A stretch of DNA of 64,000 bases from Bacteroidales bacterium (GTDB lineage Bacteria > Bacteroidota > Bacteroidia > Bacteroidales > P3). The position numbers and the translations under genes are program-made. The notes under the pieces were generated by a model. The model saw nothing but the letters and a program-made list of their open reading frames with translations, did not search any database and was not told where the DNA came from. The stretch lies in the NCBI GenBank assembly GCA_017616895.1, contig JAFZXE010000024.1, forward strand, positions 1 to 64,000, in the 5' to 3' direction. Shown in pieces: positions 8,207 to 61,853 of the stretch; the stretch's first letter is position 1, and each line of letters starts with the position of its first letter.

Positions 8207-8371
8207 GTTTATACAGACTTAATACAGACTTGATACAGACCTGACACAGACCTAATAAACAACTTACCTTTATCTGCCGCATGTCAGTCGCAAGCTTGGC
8301 TCATGCCTGCCAAATACCTGCCGTAAGCCTACAATGGTCTTGAGTCCGACCTATCCCAATCTTAATGAAGA
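8207..8371. repeat. Degenerate 11-bp-phase tandem array
   Basis: Fifteen 11-bp units run without a phase break. The first five are close copies (GTTTATACAGA, CTTAATACAGA, CTTGATACAGA, CCTGACACAGA, CCTAATAAACA). Later units diverge but keep a CYT start in phase (CTTGGCTCATG, CCTGCCAAATA, CCTGCCGTAAG, CCTACAATGGT, CTTGAGTCCGA, CCTATCCCAAT, CTTAATGAAGA). It fills most of the 315-bp gap between the HD-GNAT gene and the tRNA promoter. No gene is present. Confidence 0.8.
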
Positions 8372-20016: not shown

Positions 20017-20062
20017 CTTTTTTGAATGCTTGATTGTGTTAATGCTTGAATGCGTTAGTGTG

Positions 20063-33821: not shown

Positions 33822-35054
33822 TTAGACGCGCGGCAGGCGGATTATGAAGGTGGAGCCTTTGCCGAGTTCGCTTTCTATGCCGATTTTGCCTTTGTGGGCT
33901 TTAACCACCTGCATGACGTAGTTGAGGCCTATACCGAACCCTTTGACGTCGTGGCGGTCGCCAGTGGAGACTCTGTAGAAGTTCTCGAATATGTGGCGGC
34001 GGTCTTCTTTGGAGATGCCGATGCCATTGTCGGCGATGCTGATGCGGATGTATTTGCCCTCGATGGCGGTTGAAACCTTGACGGTAGGGTTCTTGGGGGA
34101 GTATTTTATCGCGTTGTCGATGAGGTTGCTAATCATGTTTGACAGGTGGTCGGCATCGCCATAGACGGTGACTTTCTCTGATGTGTAGTCCTCAGAAGAG
34201 GAACCTCCGGCGTCGGAAAGACGGACTTGGGCGCGCTGAACCTCGTCGGCGAGCAGTTGGTTGATGTCTATCTCGGTGTATTTCAGCGTGAATTTCTTTC
34301 TGGCCATGCGCGAGTTTCGCAGCACCGCCTCAACCAAGCGCAGCATACGTTCGTTCTCGTCGTGAATAACCTCGATGTGGTGCTTGGTGTCGCACTCGGG
34401 GGTCTCCATGTTTTCGGTCAGGTAGCAGGTTTCGAGGCGTATTGTTGAGATGGGGGTCTTCAGCTCGTGCGTCATGTTGTTGATGAAGTTGGTCTTCATC
34501 TCGTCGATTTTCCGCTGGTTGTACATGCTGCGGGTAATGGTAAGATAGGCCATCGCGATGATGACGATGAGCATGATGCTCATGAGCACCAGCACGTTGC
34601 TGTTCTTCATCAGGTATAAGGCCTTGTCCGAGAAGTATAGGGTGATGTAGTAGTCGGCAGGGTTGCCGCGGTCGTCGAGTATGATATTGTACTTGAATGG
34701 CGAATCGGCCATTTTCTTCTCCTGTCCGGGTTTGCTGCAGAAGTAGAAGTAGGTCATGCCTATGTCGCTGACCGCCACGGTGGGCAGCAGATCGACACCG
34801 TTGACAAGTAGGGCTTCGTTGACCGAGGTGACGAGAGCGTCGTAGTCGAGAGCGTCGAGCGATGGACTGTTCTCGCTGTGCTTGTCGGCGGCGAGGTTGC
34901 GGATGACCTCGTCCATGGCGTCGGTCACGCTGGTGTTGAAGAGGCTGTCGCTTATGGACGCCGAGCGCTCAATCTGCCATATCTGAATGGACACCAGAGC
35001 CGTGGCGGCAACGGTGAAAATGGTGGATATGGTGACAATGAACCAGCGTCTCAT
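33822..35054 (-). CDS. Sensor histidine kinase (orphan)
   Basis: This 410-residue protein has a first membrane span at about 5-26, a periplasmic sensor of about 125 residues, and a second span at about 153-173. The HisKA domain has phospho-acceptor H196 (NMTHELKTPIS), and the HATPase domain has N box NLIDNAIKYSP, G1 IADNGIGIS, F box IFENFYR and G2 GFGIGL. No response regulator gene is adjacent, so its partner lies elsewhere. The stop is 3 bp from that of the convergent glycosyltransferase. The region upstream of its start is the long 11-bp-phase array. Confidence 0.92.
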   Translation of the reverse strand: MRRWFIVTISTIFTVAATALVSIQIWQIERSASISDSLFNTSVTDAMDEVIRNLAADKHSENSPSLDALDYDALVTSVNEALLVNGVDLLPTVAVSDIGMTYFYFCSKPGQEKKMADSPFKYNIILDDRGNPADYYITLYFSDKALYLMKNSNVLVLMSIMLIVIIAMAYLTITRSMYNQRKIDEMKTNFINNMTHELKTPISTIRLETCYLTENMETPECDTKHHIEVIHDENERMLRLVEAVLRNSRMARKKFTLKYTEIDINQLLADEVQRAQVRLSDAGGSSSEDYTSEKVTVYGDADHLSNMISNLIDNAIKYSPKNPTVKVSTAIEGKYIRISIADNGIGISKEDRRHIFENFYRVSTGDRHDVKGFGIGLNYVMQVVKAHKGKIGIESELGKGSTFIIRLPRV

Positions 35055-35122
35055 AATCTATATTATAACGCAGAAAGTGCGATTTAGGTATATGCGAGTG
35101 GATTGATTCCATACACGCCATC

Positions 35123-35463
35123 CCCTCGTTTGTCCTTAGTCCAACCCACGGTCGGCCCCCGCCAACCCCACGGTTGGCCACCACCAGACCCCATACTGGC
35201 CCACGGTCGGCCACCACCAACCCCACGGTTGACCCCAAACAACCCCACGGTTGGCTCCAAACAACCCCACGGTTGGCCCACGCTTACCCACCACCAGACC
35301 CCATACAGAACCGAGGTCGGCCACCGCCAAACCCACGGTTGACCCCAAACAAACCCAAGGTTGGCCCACGGTCGGCTCGAAACCGAGCCAATGTCGTCTT
35401 TACGTTGGCTCAACTCAATAGTTAATCAAAACCTGAGCAAAACCTGAGCAAAACCTGTAAACA
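35123..35463. repeat. Long degenerate 11-bp-phase tandem array (about 31 units)
   Basis: Consecutive 11-bp windows from 35123 to 35463 never lose phase. Common unit types are CCCACGGTTGG or CCCACGGTCGG (35145, 35167, 35200, 35244, 35266, 35365), CCACCACCAGA (35178, 35288), CCCCAAACAAC or CCCCAAACAAA (35233, 35343) and finally ACCTGAGCAAA twice (35431, 35442). Many adjacent pairs form a 22-bp higher-order unit. Nearly all units start with C. The array fills much of the 650-bp gap between the divergent histidine kinase and mtnN. No gene is present; frames across it are open only because the repeat lacks stops. Confidence 0.9.
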
Positions 35464-35682
35464 TATTTTGTTGGTTTATAAAACGTTATAACCACTATTT
35501 TTGCCATTTTTCGTCAAGTTGAAAATAGCTAATCCGCACATTGTCAAAACATTGTCTTCAAAAAAAATAATACAGCATTTTCTATCACATAGCGTATATC
35601 AAGTGTCGCACATCCAAGTTGAATTTAAGTGAAAACATGGAATAATTTTCATCATAAAGTATATACATGCAGTAATATTGCG

Positions 35683-35690
35683 TATTTTTG
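35683..35690 (+). promoter_or_regulatory. mtnN promoter (-7 box)
   Basis: TATTTTTG fits the -7 consensus 16 bases before the ATG. No correctly spaced TTTG is present. The sequence from 35464 to 35682 is AT-rich and otherwise featureless. Confidence 0.45.
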
Positions 35691-35706
35691 CAAAAAATAT
35701 TTTGAT

Positions 35707-36369
35707 ATGAAGATTGGACTTATCATTGCTATGGAGAGTGAGTACCGTATGCTTGGCGAGATGCTGGGAGGTGACTGCGGGCGACTTGGTGCGAACACAG
35801 TGGTGCTGCACCGCTGCGGTATAGGCAAGGTGAACGCTGCGGTAGGCACTGTGGGGCTGATTGAGAAGGAGCGTCCGGACTGTATCATCAGTAGCGGTGT
35901 GGCGGGCGGTATAGACAGAGGCCTGGACGTGATGGACATAGTGGTTGCGGAGCAGACGGCTTACCACGACGTGTGGTGCGGCGACGGGAACGAGAAAGGG
36001 CAGGTGCAGGGGCTGCCGCCGCGGTTTGAGTCGGACACAAGGCTGTGTGACGCTGCGATGGCAGGTGCGGCAGGAAATGTGAAAAGGGGGCTCACGTGCA
36101 CAGGAGACCAGTTTATCACATCAAAAGAGGCTCTGGCGAAGATAAAGCTAGACTTCCCCGAGGCTTTGGCGGTGGATATGGAGTCGGCTGCGATAGCACA
36201 GGTGTGCTACTTGAAAGGCGTTCCGTTTATGTCGGTGCGGATTGTGAGCGACACGCCAGGTGCGACACCTGACCATTTCGCTCAGTATATGGACTTCTGG
36301 AAAGAGTTAAGCGACCGCTCGTTTGGGAATATTAAGGCGATATTAGAGCGGATGCCAGCGAAACTTTGA
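35707..36369 (+). CDS. mtnN: MTA/SAH nucleosidase
   Basis: This protein is 220 residues from the ATG at 35707 (MKIGLIIAMESEYRML). The 26-codon in-frame extension includes the promoter and is rejected. It cleaves adenine from methylthioadenosine and S-adenosylhomocysteine, serving methyl-cycle salvage and, where luxS exists, AI-2 formation. Family marks are GIGKVNAAVGT, ISSGVAGGID, CTGDQFI and VDMESAAIAQVC (purine-site Glu and Asp region). It is slightly shorter than the E. coli enzyme. Confidence 0.93.
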   Translation: MKIGLIIAMESEYRMLGEMLGGDCGRLGANTVVLHRCGIGKVNAAVGTVGLIEKERPDCIISSGVAGGIDRGLDVMDIVVAEQTAYHDVWCGDGNEKGQVQGLPPRFESDTRLCDAAMAGAAGNVKRGLTCTGDQFITSKEALAKIKLDFPEALAVDMESAAIAQVCYLKGVPFMSVRIVSDTPGATPDHFAQYMDFWKELSDRSFGNIKAILERMPAKL

Positions 36370-36380
36370 ATAAAAATGTG

Positions 36381-36388
36381 TATCTTTG
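36381..36388 (+). promoter_or_regulatory. Promoter (-7 box) of the MNT/HEPN pair
   Basis: TATCTTTG is a perfect -7 box ending 8 bases before the ATG at 36397, so the mRNA would be almost leaderless. It also rules out the in-frame ATG at 36376. The -33 side has no well-spaced TTTG. Confidence 0.6.
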
Positions 36389-36396
36389 CAAGCGAT

Positions 36397-36714
36397 ATGG
36401 AACAGCATGAGGTGATTAGGCATATTAAAGAAAAAGCCTTGAAAATACTGCCTGAGGGTAGTTCCCTATGGCTTTACGGCAGTCGTGCCAGAGGGGATGC
36501 CCACGATGGCAGCGATTATGATTTGCTCATTTTGCTTGACAAGGACAAGATAACATCGGGCGACTATGACGACTATGTATATGCGTTCAGTATTCTTGGG
36601 GTGAATATCGATGAAGAGATAAATCCGCATATATACACGAGGCGAGATTGGGAAAAGTGGTCCTTTGAACCCTTTCACAGCAATGTGGAAAGAGAAAAAA
36701 TAGTATTGAGATGA
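36397..36714 (+). CDS. MNT-type nucleotidyltransferase (probable antitoxin)
   Basis: This 105-residue minimal nucleotidyltransferase has motif YGSRARGDAHDGSDYDLL (residues 27-44), with active-site GS and catalytic D40 and D42. Proteins of this family paired with HEPN proteins act as antitoxins, in studied cases by adenylylating the HEPN toxin. The start is chosen by the promoter position. It overlaps the HEPN gene by four bases (ATGA), the usual coupling for this two-gene module. Confidence 0.88.
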   Translation: MEQHEVIRHIKEKALKILPEGSSLWLYGSRARGDAHDGSDYDLLILLDKDKITSGDYDDYVYAFSILGVNIDEEINPHIYTRRDWEKWSFEPFHSNVEREKIVLR

Positions 36715-37106
36715 GCCTAGACGAGGAAAAACGAAATACATTGGTTGAGCTGGAACTTGAAAAAGCTGTCAACACATACGAGGACGCCTCGCTGCTGGCT
36801 GAACGCGAGAGGTGGAGTGGTGCTGCAAACAGGTTGTACTATGCTGTATTCCATGCAGTAAACGCCTTGCTGATAAAGGATGGACATCTAATTAAATCGC
36901 ACAAGGGTGCATTTGCGGAGTTCAGCAAGAATTATGTATTGACGGAGCAGGTATCGTCCGAGTATGGCAAGCTGTTCCGTCAACTGGAAACAATGAGAGA
37001 GGAAAGTGACTACGACTGCATGTTCCATGTGGAGGCGGATCAGATAAAGGAAAAACTGCAGCCTGCAAAAGAAATGATAGATATGATTGCGAGCAGAGTG
37101 AAGTGA
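36711..37106 (+). CDS. HEPN-domain protein (probable RNase toxin)
   Basis: This 131-residue all-helical HEPN protein has the core AANRLYYAVFHAVNALL (38-54), including the R-x6-H motif (R41, H48) associated with HEPN RNase activity. The rest (HKGAFAEFSKNYV, ESDYDCMFHVEADQI) matches HEPN partners of MNT antitoxins. It forms a type VII-like toxin-antitoxin pair with the preceding gene. Such pairs are mobile and often lie next to tRNA genes, as here (tRNA-Arg 66 bp downstream). Confidence 0.88.
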   Translation: MSLDEEKRNTLVELELEKAVNTYEDASLLAERERWSGAANRLYYAVFHAVNALLIKDGHLIKSHKGAFAEFSKNYVLTEQVSSEYGKLFRQLETMREESDYDCMFHVEADQIKEKLQPAKEMIDMIASRVK

Positions 37107-37172
37107 CAAATAAATCAGTAGGCACAATAAAACGTGCGGTTGCAAGTTACTTATTGTTGGAATAGAGAAAAA

Positions 37173-42062: not shown

Positions 42063-42117
42063 CAAAGCCACTGCAAAGCCACTGCAAAGTCACAGCAAAG
42101 TCACTGCAAAGTCGCTG
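42063..42117. repeat. Five 11-bp tandem repeats (CAAAGYCACTG)
   Basis: The units are CAAAGCCACTG (twice), CAAAGTCACAG, CAAAGTCACTG and CAAAGTCGCTG, contiguous and in exact 11-bp phase. They lie between the LolA-like gene and its terminator. The CAAAGYCA core is shared with the array at 61.8 kb. Confidence 0.88.
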
Positions 42118-49000: not shown

Positions 49001-49892
49001 GGGAAGTGCTTTAGCCGCATACGACATGTCTGATGCTGCATTGGTTAAGGATCACAAGGTGAACTTCAAGGTACATCTGCGTGGTTATGACTTGAACGAC
49101 AATAATGCCGAAGATTTCAGGAGAATATCCTATCCGTCGGTTGAGTCGGGGGTGCTGCCGATGCCAGAGATGGAGAAAGACAGAGAGAGGTTTAATGCAC
49201 CGATGCTGATTACTCTAAAATCGGCAGTTGCCGATGCGGAAATACGATATACGCTCGATGGAAGCGAGCCTACCGAGTCATCGCTGTTCTATAAGACACC
49301 GATTAAAATATCGTCGTCAACTATCGTTTCGGCAAGGGCGTTCAAGAAAGGATTTGCACCATCGTTTGTGGCTCGCAGCCATTACAGTTTCGACTATGTA
49401 AAATCGACCACATTTGACCACAAACCAAACACACCATATAATCGGCAGTACCAGACGGCGCTGTTTGATGCAGAGTACGGCGATGTGAACAACCTCTCGA
49501 ACGGATGGATTGGTTTTTCTGCATCGGATATGTCTGTGGTGTTGGAGCTGACAAAAGAGATAGAGTTGGAAAGTGTAGAACTGCGGTTCGCACATAACCC
49601 GGATGCATGGGCGTTTGCGCCTACTGCGGTGGATGTGTATGTGTCGCAGGATGGAGTGACGTATTCAGAGCCGATGGCTGCGAATATAACGTATGACCCT
49701 CAGTCGGAGACGATGAATATGTCGCAGCTGACGTCGATAAACGTGTATGTGGATAAGCCTAATGTGCGTTATGTGAAGGTTGTGGCTAAAAATATGGGGC
49801 GGATACCGTCGTGGCATCGCAACAAAGGACTGCGCCCGTGGCTAATGACTGACGAGATTAAGTTGAACGAGAGAATTGGAGGGAAGTTTTGA
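46032..49892 (+). CDS. GH2 (LacZ-like) protein lacking both catalytic Glu
   Basis: This 1286-residue exported protein (signal 1-21) has the LacZ domain order. The sugar-binding domain (about 45-235) and Ig-like domain are followed by a TIM barrel (about 345-610) and beta-galactosidase small-chain-like domains (about 745-1050). A chitobiase-type C-domain (about 1100-1150, ADAEIRYTLDGSEPTESS) and a discoidin-like end follow. In the barrel, the acid/base motif SLGNE reads SLGSG (Gly476) and the nucleophile motif CEY reads NSY (Ser539). The NRHEHHP and HYP substrate motifs read AYANYDI and VYS. It is therefore probably catalytically dead and may bind glycans. Fold and length are fully kept, so it is not simple decay. 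Confidence 0.85.
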   Translation: MRKMLAIAMLTAIMIPFSVYSQKNDKGSAAPVLTEWSDPDVFEQHKLYPRVNVVGYEYENDIAKGYYRSSPYYVSLSGKWSFDIQNAVGLRPDMENKKLDVSGWGKINVPNYVWHYKGEVAKIPEIGNVTDLPDKGNYIATYYREFNVSSTWKGYEAFLQVQGKSAYYVWINNVYAGYSEDSRALSEFNITQHLKYGKVNTIAIQVLGLSDGSLLESDYSHSLNGLTHDVAIVLKPTVNINDYKIVTDYDAKTTIGEVQITATVANKAKNGLYYLETEIWTPQGKQLDKMAKWVAFDKRSEVDATLKRDFAGIEPWTAETPNLYTVIVRLRDKNMNLIEVTGGQFGFRKVEISGTELLVNGSPVKLRGMAYANYDIATGGEPTYEQMEKDLVQMKRNNINAIRTAVYSPADDEFYKLCDKYGFYVVCEANIQPYSTQKKAIATDGDYENLFVARVQNMYEPLKNHPSIIAWSLGSGRDNGVCMERAYAALKQKDKGRPVIFAGAGYSENTDIVALTETDPDALKAAAVKKQSRPILLNSYGILAGNGFGGMEALWKLVSDNSKFLGGFVEWWASVNSYAEALKSDRKSRGLYEDAKNSVPYLQELANIYRPFDVRLVSVSQDACEFVISCRSGVNATGNYVLEYNMFSNLKPHIVGGEIDLALSAGDSKTFRLKMPVLNLYIGEELFVRFSVKQRTRTAAVPQGTTLATVEMPLPTKRLDKIALENSGKLSAAVTGDQNGKKGVLTLTGPRFKMKYDLDAADISEYSYDGVVMVESPLRSTITRPPTENDVVDRNGVRNWGHLTPEELTRSVQAVNYRQVDESSAVIDAMVSYSKDGSPVYDLKQTIAIHSSGDVIVDNSITISSSIKNVARIGFETQVPNGLNDVSWFGRKGETYVDRCSWADMGSHKEKAEKMSYDYEIPQASGNRSDVRWFALSNGQKGLFVDMIDTTFNFTVSRYTDHQISAAKNRSALKASNLNTIHIDFKMAGVGSALAAYDMSDAALVKDHKVNFKVHLRGYDLNDNNAEDFRRISYPSVESGVLPMPEMEKDRERFNAPMLITLKSAVADAEIRYTLDGSEPTESSLFYKTPIKISSSTIVSARAFKKGFAPSFVARSHYSFDYVKSTTFDHKPNTPYNRQYQTALFDAEYGDVNNLSNGWIGFSASDMSVVLELTKEIELESVELRFAHNPDAWAFAPTAVDVYVSQDGVTYSEPMAANITYDPQSETMNMSQLTSINVYVDKPNVRYVKVVAKNMGRIPSWHRNKGLRPWLMTDEIKLNERIGGKF

Positions 49893-49945
49893 GTTTTAAG
49901 CTGTAAGTTTTAAGTTTCAAGGTTTAAGTTTCGGCTTACAAATAT

Positions 49946-61798: not shown

Positions 61799-61853
61799 TA
61801 TCAAAGCCATATCAAAGTCATATCAAAGTCATATTAAAGTCAGGATAAAGCCG
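61799..61853. repeat. Five 11-bp tandem repeats (TATCAAAGYCA)
   Basis: The units are TATCAAAGCCA, TATCAAAGTCA (twice), TATTAAAGTCA and GGATAAAGCCG, contiguous and in phase. The core matches the 42.06-kb array and, on the opposite strand, the array near 2.1 kb. It lies upstream of the third adhesin gene promoter. Confidence 0.85.

Follow-up and report, generated by a model that had tools for sequence, protein, structure and literature searches.

An 11-bp repeat array between divergent genes of a Bacteroidales bacterium as a probable copy of a dispersed minisatellite, and the unit lengths of spacer repeats in its genus

We analyzed an array of 11-bp units in the window, which denotes the whole 64,000-nucleotide stretch of a Bacteroidales genome under study. 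Our best reading is that the array represents one copy of a young minisatellite, specific to its lineage, that is dispersed over about ten spacer sites of one gut bacterium. The fuller statement, that the array is such a copy and that its unit length follows a genus-wide bias, we regard as roughly an even call. In this explanation, family A consists of an 11-bp minisatellite joined to an AT-rich module of about 170 bp, the two of which would have been inserted into spacers at about ten sites. The array would grow and shrink through in-register duplication and deletion, by slippage or unequal exchange, thereby keeping its 11-bp phase while the units diverge. The unit length would come from a genus-wide bias in making or retaining tandem duplications of 7, 8 and 11 bp, and not from a function of the window site itself.

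Structure and phase of the array

The periodicity of the region 35123-35463 was compared with 1000 dinucleotide shuffles, for which the top value over lags 2-44 was 0.395. The fraction of matching bases reached 0.430 at lag 11 (shuffle mean 0.285; z 6.0) and 0.549 at lag 22 (z 10.4), with 0.445 at lag 33 and 0.495 at lag 44. The lag-11 signal expected by a first-pass annotation of the DNA is thus present, and the comparison with shuffles excludes chance as its origin. Head-to-tail units of one length occur beyond chance, and the higher-order duplications consist of whole units. The plus strand of the array is rich in C and poor in G. ORFs run across it on both strands and in several frames, but a unit of 11 bp is not a whole number of codons, and a coding repeat seems unlikely. 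An assembly artefact is unlikely, as 11-bp arrays are present in many separate genomes of the genus.

The first-pass annotation had counted about 31 contiguous units without indels, arranged in part in a 22-bp higher order. Twenty-one of these units are clean (Table 1). The flanking ones, among them those of 35123-35144, fit the register when cut but show weak resemblance to one another, and the core is a distinct three-unit array within the conserved module. Tandem Repeats Finder reported periods of 11, 22, 77 and 110 bp; freedom from indels holds for the 110-bp row (86% matches, 0% indels) but not for three overlapping rows, which contain 4-6% indels. The 22-bp order is borne out by a unit identity of 0.59 at a lag of two units against 0.40 at a lag of one, and a ten-unit, 110-bp order is stronger still (0.70). 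The higher-order periods of 22, 77 and 110 bp in the window and of 99 bp in copy C25 of the family are all multiples of 11, which supports our explanation.

Table 1. Features of the array and its surroundings (positions in the window)
Feature	Coordinates	Strand	Basis
Histidine kinase gene (HisKA PF00512, HATPase_c PF02518), divergent left neighbour	33822..35054	-	
Lineage-specific insertion, approximate extent	35090..35660	.	Relatives' spacers
Clean array, 21 diverged 11-bp units in one register with 22- and 110-bp higher order	35145..35375	+	Tandem Repeats Finder, lag identity, unit comparison
Unit types of the clean array: CCCACGGTTGG, CCACCACCAGA, CCCCAAACAAC	35145..35375	+	
Transitional units, cuttable in the 11-bp register of the array, weakly alike	35376..35429	+	
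Conserved AT-rich module, about 170 bp, whole or in part at 10 places in the own genome	35389..35570	+	
Core, three 11-bp units CAAAACCTGAG, most conserved part of dispersed family A	35427..35457	+	
Nucleosidase-type gene (PNP_UDP_1 PF01048), divergent right neighbour	35707..36369	+	

The unbroken phase had been taken to mean that spacing is constrained at the site. A minimum spanning tree of the window array holds at least about 27 substitutions. No second genome of the species turned up; the sole near-strain pair, L063 and L065, differs by 39 substitutions and 2 indels in spacers over 953 columns; no 7-, 8- or 11-bp array lies in the 9.2 kb compared between the two. At their rate about 1.4 indels would be expected in the window array and the probability of seeing none is about 0.25, with a span of 0.008-0.85 over the assumed rates. 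With about 27 substitutions and this probability, the missing-indel argument is weak for the window array alone. Spacer indels are rare in any case (2 per 39 substitutions), and the phase is, in our best reading, explained well enough by in-register duplication together with rare indels.

When the sequence preceding the core in each of the nine other copies was scored with a profile of the window units, the best score fell in the register of the window in six of them (C9, C18, C22, C1, C23a and C25; the score of C18 rests on the 66 bases before its contig start). These six keep array and core in phase as the window does, which favours the earlier emphasis on 11 bp. Copy C2 is shifted by -1, the array of C23b is divided between registers 0 and +1, and in C31 the core is not preceded by an array of the window type. 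Most copies of family A keep the register, yet indels do occur, and the shifted copies weaken the argument from missing indels further.

A dispersed family with an empty site in relatives

The module starts at the 3' end of the window array. A BLAST search of 35375-35710 against the own genome found nine further places (E < 1e-10), and ten places of that genome carry the 21-base core without mismatch (C1, C2, C8, C9, C18, C22, C23 twice, C25 and C31). Outside it, the core was found in 0/120 other genomes of the family (50 of them of the same genus) with up to 1 mismatch allowed. Neither a collection of 84,980 species genomes nor viral contigs held an exact match to the core, with the proviso that both may omit records very close to the window's genome. 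The module as query gave only short matches of 27-36 bp, in 3/98 other genus genomes.

The array does lie between two divergent genes, as first annotated. Kinase and nucleosidase genes are separated by 652 bp here and by about 105, 105 and 116 bp in the close relatives Tb.RUG.96, UBA1223 and RUG12008, the last of which was taken to be our comparison genome G014. None of the three has the array in this spacer; in a fourth relative, Reindeer_2_mag_91, a different gene stands beside the kinase. The empty site was observed for the window copy of family A. As the orthologous spacer is empty in three close relatives, the array is not a conserved regulatory cis element. The ten core copies, the failure to find the core in the other genomes searched and the empty site all speak for our explanation.

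The -7 box of Bacteroidetes promoters has the consensus TAnnTTTG. The plus-strand sequence TATTTTTG at 35683..35690 fits it. The relatives have TACCTTTG and TACTTTTG at a similar place, and the box is present in all three empty-site relatives. Judged from these boxes, the insertion is probably located upstream of the promoter. Beyond the nucleosidase gene, the window carries a toxin-antitoxin-like pair of HEPN and nucleotidyltransferase genes (36376-37106), and nothing matching the stretch 36373-37122 is present between the corresponding neighbours in Tb.RUG.96 (L063).

The first-pass annotation had also considered an RNA with periodic structure. An alignment of the module from 7/10 copies gave a consensus fold of -2.2 kcal/mol with two-sided changes in 1/17 pairs and hence no supported RNA structure, and an Rfam scan of the window returned tRNAs only, with nothing at the array. 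A structured RNA was rejected on these results.

Unit lengths of spacer arrays across the genus

Arrays were called in stretches of the own genome, of G014 and of 28 further members of the genus, together 131,123 noncoding bases, with noncoding defined as outside ORFs of at least 100 aa (genes were called by this simple ORF rule, without a gene finder) and an array as at least 24/33 matches at the smallest lag. Twenty of the stretches were the first contig of each genome, taken regardless of array content; two G014 stretches overlap by 1 kb (C11:134001-135000). Three lengths dominated, with 49 arrays of 7 bp, 43 of 8 bp and 63 of 11 bp against one of 10 bp and none of 12 or 13 bp. Further arrays had units of 4 (3), 6 (5), 9 (7) and 22 bp (7), and all other lengths from 14 to 35 bp amounted to 15. 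The density of 11-bp arrays in the own genome is inflated, because its stretches were partly picked for copies of family A (8/25 own 11-bp calls). Block-shuffled sequence of the first three sets yielded zero arrays at the stricter threshold of 26/33. In the mean lag spectra, the own genome has its peaks at lags of 7, 8 and 11 and at multiples of these; G014 and other members of the genus share the peaks at 7, 8 and 11 and add others at 6, 18 and 24 or at 9, 18 and 27.

Outside the genus the picture is different. Sampling ten further genera of the family (30,620 noncoding bases) yielded 7-bp (2), 8-bp (1), 10-bp (3), 12-bp (1), 21-bp (7), 22-bp (2) and 30-bp (1) arrays, and genera of the other families of the order (29,291 bases) gave two of 7 bp and one each of 8, 16, 21, 23, 24 and 39 bp. 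No 11-bp array was called in these roughly 60 kb, where the rate of the genus predicts about 14 in each sample. Zero arrays were found in 7,438 noncoding bases of E. coli. A sister genus of the family has about 10 units of a 21-bp array at L199:18053-18271; we do not rely on the 21-bp arrays of sister genera as two helical turns, as most of nine inspected stretches overlap small ORFs. The earlier emphasis on 11 bp is thus upheld at the level of the genus, where this length recurs in many different units and 10, 12 and 13 are almost absent.

Sequence and period behave differently. Among the 63 11-bp arrays, 61% of those with another array in the same genome have a unit there within 2 mismatches (6% in shuffles), and for another genome the figure is 25% against 20% in shuffles, which is not much above chance. 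Units of 8 bp are common to different genomes in 67% of cases against 34% by chance (within 1 mismatch), and units of 7 bp in 71%, equal to the chance value of 72%. The 11-bp units turn over species by species and the period stays. This turnover and the counts of unit lengths both speak for our explanation.

The window itself contains further 11-bp arrays with other units (2047-2068, 2124-2165, 8211-8257, 42063-42117 and 61799-61842), a 7-bp array (49884-49931) and an 8-bp array (20022-20057). A second 11-bp family was seen at L077:8719-8853, L078:963-1096, L080:11448-11617 and L085:1129-1186, with the ordered unit types CCGTATCAACG, TATACCCCTTA and CTCCTACAATT, L085 being limited to the first of these; all of the copies but L080 come after a common flank with a short sequence that by eye resembles a hairpin.

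Short tandem repeats are usually attributed to slippage, which offers no obvious reason for 7, 8 and 11 without 10, 12 and 13. The absence of these lengths therefore counts against our explanation as far as plain slippage is concerned. Exact two-copy repeats outside arrays in genus spacers agree with our explanation in that they include lengths of 7 (6) and 11 bp (5) and none of 10 or 13 bp, but they conform to the rule imperfectly, as lengths of 8 (1), 9 (3), 12 (2), 17 (4) and 22 bp (7) show. The five 6-bp arrays, which are found in G014, count against it as well. A context-free mutational bias furthermore does not predict that the period correlates with gene context, which it does.

Gene context and competing explanations

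Spacers of at least 60 bp numbered 616 (345 tandem, 148 divergent, 123 convergent). The 11-bp arrays favour divergent spacers (31/69 arrays versus 148/616 spacers, P 4e-4; bp-weighted P 0.005; per spacer 26/58, P 0.0014; without family A 22/51, P 0.004), and those in tandem spacers lie far from genes (medians of 150 and 217 bp). The 7-bp arrays favour spacers between co-oriented genes (37/44 tandem, 4/44 divergent, P 2e-4; per spacer 34/41 tandem, P 5e-4) and lie close behind the upstream stop, at a median distance of 22 bp. Arrays of 8 bp have no context preference (25/41 tandem per spacer, P 0.63). Among 11-bp arrays in tandem spacers, A outnumbers T on the sense strand in 18 cases and is outnumbered in 7 (P 0.04); 7-bp arrays show a tendency towards G on that strand (24 versus 12, P 0.065).

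A strong form of these findings would be that a mechanism or constraint of the genus fixes the spacer-repeat unit at 7, 8 or 11 bp whatever the sequence, sorts 7-bp arrays into co-oriented and 11-bp arrays into divergent promoter spacers and renews the 11-bp sequences in each species, a claim we consider rather unlikely. A related proposal is that the 11-bp period is selected, with the arrays as putative platforms for a nucleoid or regulatory protein stacked on one face of the helix in promoter spacers, and that 7-bp arrays have another job in transcribed spacers. We think this doubtful. The preference for divergent spacers, with or without family A, the distance of tandem 11-bp arrays from genes, the position of 7-bp arrays shortly past a stop and the excess of A over T on the sense strand all speak for it. 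Long divergent spacers give more room, which explains part only of the preference given the bp-weighted value. However, B-DNA has 10.5 bp per turn, and phasing on it should tolerate 10; the helical-turn spacing suggested in the first-pass annotation fares badly for this reason, and because 7- and 8-bp arrays are nearly as common. The neutrality of 8-bp arrays towards gene context and the empty spacer of the window array in three relatives weigh against selection as well.

Orthologous spacers bear on the same proposal. In 77 syntenic spacers of the own genome and G014, assessed by length-matched permutation, 11-bp arrays occurred in 5 and 4 spacers with 2 in common (P 0.05; 0.33 at a looser threshold), a co-occurrence too weak to carry selection of the period. 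The corresponding numbers were 16 and 7 with 4 in common for 7-bp arrays (P 0.025; looser 0.135), 9 and 8 with none in common for 8-bp arrays and 27 and 18 with 9 in common for any of the three lengths (P 0.027; looser 0.041). Three spacers have 11-bp arrays in both this species and G014, two with synteny on both sides and one with synteny on one side, and their units differ by eye, for example CAAAGTCACTG here versus CTCCCTATCAT in G014 at window position 42063; this favours a selected period. Co-occurrence of arrays in orthologous spacers is thus suggestive but not established. The orthologous spacers L078:10700-10985 and L097:4955-5180 of two species share a layout in which an 8-bp array comes after a 7-bp array, with units that differ between the two.

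Family A may instead be a non-autonomous mobile element, with the array as an internal passenger and the module bearing ends recognised by a transposase. Dispersed copies, a conserved module and the empty site in relatives fit this idea. A two-sided synteny comparison with G014, which covered part of both genomes, placed the copy at a synteny break in 3/4 loci: left and right neighbours of C1, C23b and C23a map to different G014 places, and the window locus is syntenic. The breaks lose weight, however, as 26/35 listed ones lack a 7-, 8- or 11-bp array and part of this list stems from the ends of sampled stretches. Terminal inverted repeats or a target duplication were not resolved, the spacer alignment being too diverged to place the ends; C31, C2 and C25 match the window over only 56-62 bp around the core, and the 5' side consists of the array alone. 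On balance we judge a mobile element unlikely. Directly after one family-A copy lies a repeat of about 165 bp (L023:4106-4269) with seven G014 matches of 71-92% identity, whose surroundings by eye resemble inverted, MITE-like ends.

A Rho-utilisation (rut) site or other RNA signal with periodic YC steps, suggested by the C-rich, G-poor plus strand of the array and by an absolute GC skew of 0.40 in 11-bp arrays versus 0.26 in spacers generally, is highly improbable and was rejected for the absence of a GC strand preference (of the tandem-spacer arrays, 11 have the C-rich strand as the sense strand and 14 as the antisense strand, and among 27 the GC skew of the sense strand is above zero in 13 and below it in 14), and neither the position of the window copy upstream of both genes nor the fold and Rfam results agree with it.

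A copy of a dispersed minisatellite remains our preferred reading, and its nearest counterparts are repeat systems described earlier. TAACTGA heptamer arrays of Beggiatoaceae, Cyanobacteria and some Bacteroidetes (MacGregor 2015, PMC4679880) likewise form many intergenic arrays of one short unit length with a sporadic distribution over lineages. According to the accessible part of that paper, spacers of close relatives are in some cases without the heptamer repeats, and indels between two strains are mostly 7-nt steps. The window array does not belong to that type, as its unit is 11 bp and 7-bp arrays are found elsewhere in the genus. The part of the paper available to us follows one heptamer, whereas here three exact lengths coexist, with 11-bp arrays at least as numerous as 7-bp arrays in the sample, and family A has a conserved flanking module, unlike the TAACTGA arrays as presented there.

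Prokaryote satellites (PMC6749651) are also intergenic tandem repeats in families scattered over a genome, a process termed satellite transposition; the accessible text of that study contains no Bacteroid word stem and notes no quantisation of unit length. A tree-of-life survey of short tandem repeats (PMC12699852) reports, in its accessible part, units of 6-9 bp enriched in a subset of prokaryotic phyla and a high repeat density in Bacteroidota; it spans units of 1-9 bp, and 11-bp arrays fall outside. The bacterial 11-bp genomic periodicity (PMC3372288) shares a period of about 11 bp, tied to helical phasing and negative supercoiling, but its signal as described in the available text is one of periodic A-tracts, not tandem arrays, and makes no prediction of 7 and 8. 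Searches of the open-access literature brought up no report of the 7/8/11 pattern of unit lengths. A near precedent is Mrazek et al. 2007, which, as summarised in the accessible part of PMC4679880, described long simple sequence repeats with units of 5-11 nt, heptamers being commonest in most genomes, and proposed polymerase contact as the cause for 7; that summary has no 7/8/11 rule with gaps at 10, 12 and 13. In this genus, rich in such arrays, the old remark that heptamers are preferred becomes a sharp pattern open to test: either a length ruler is built into the replication and repair machinery, or spacer DNA is subject to a length constraint that varies with the kind of spacer.
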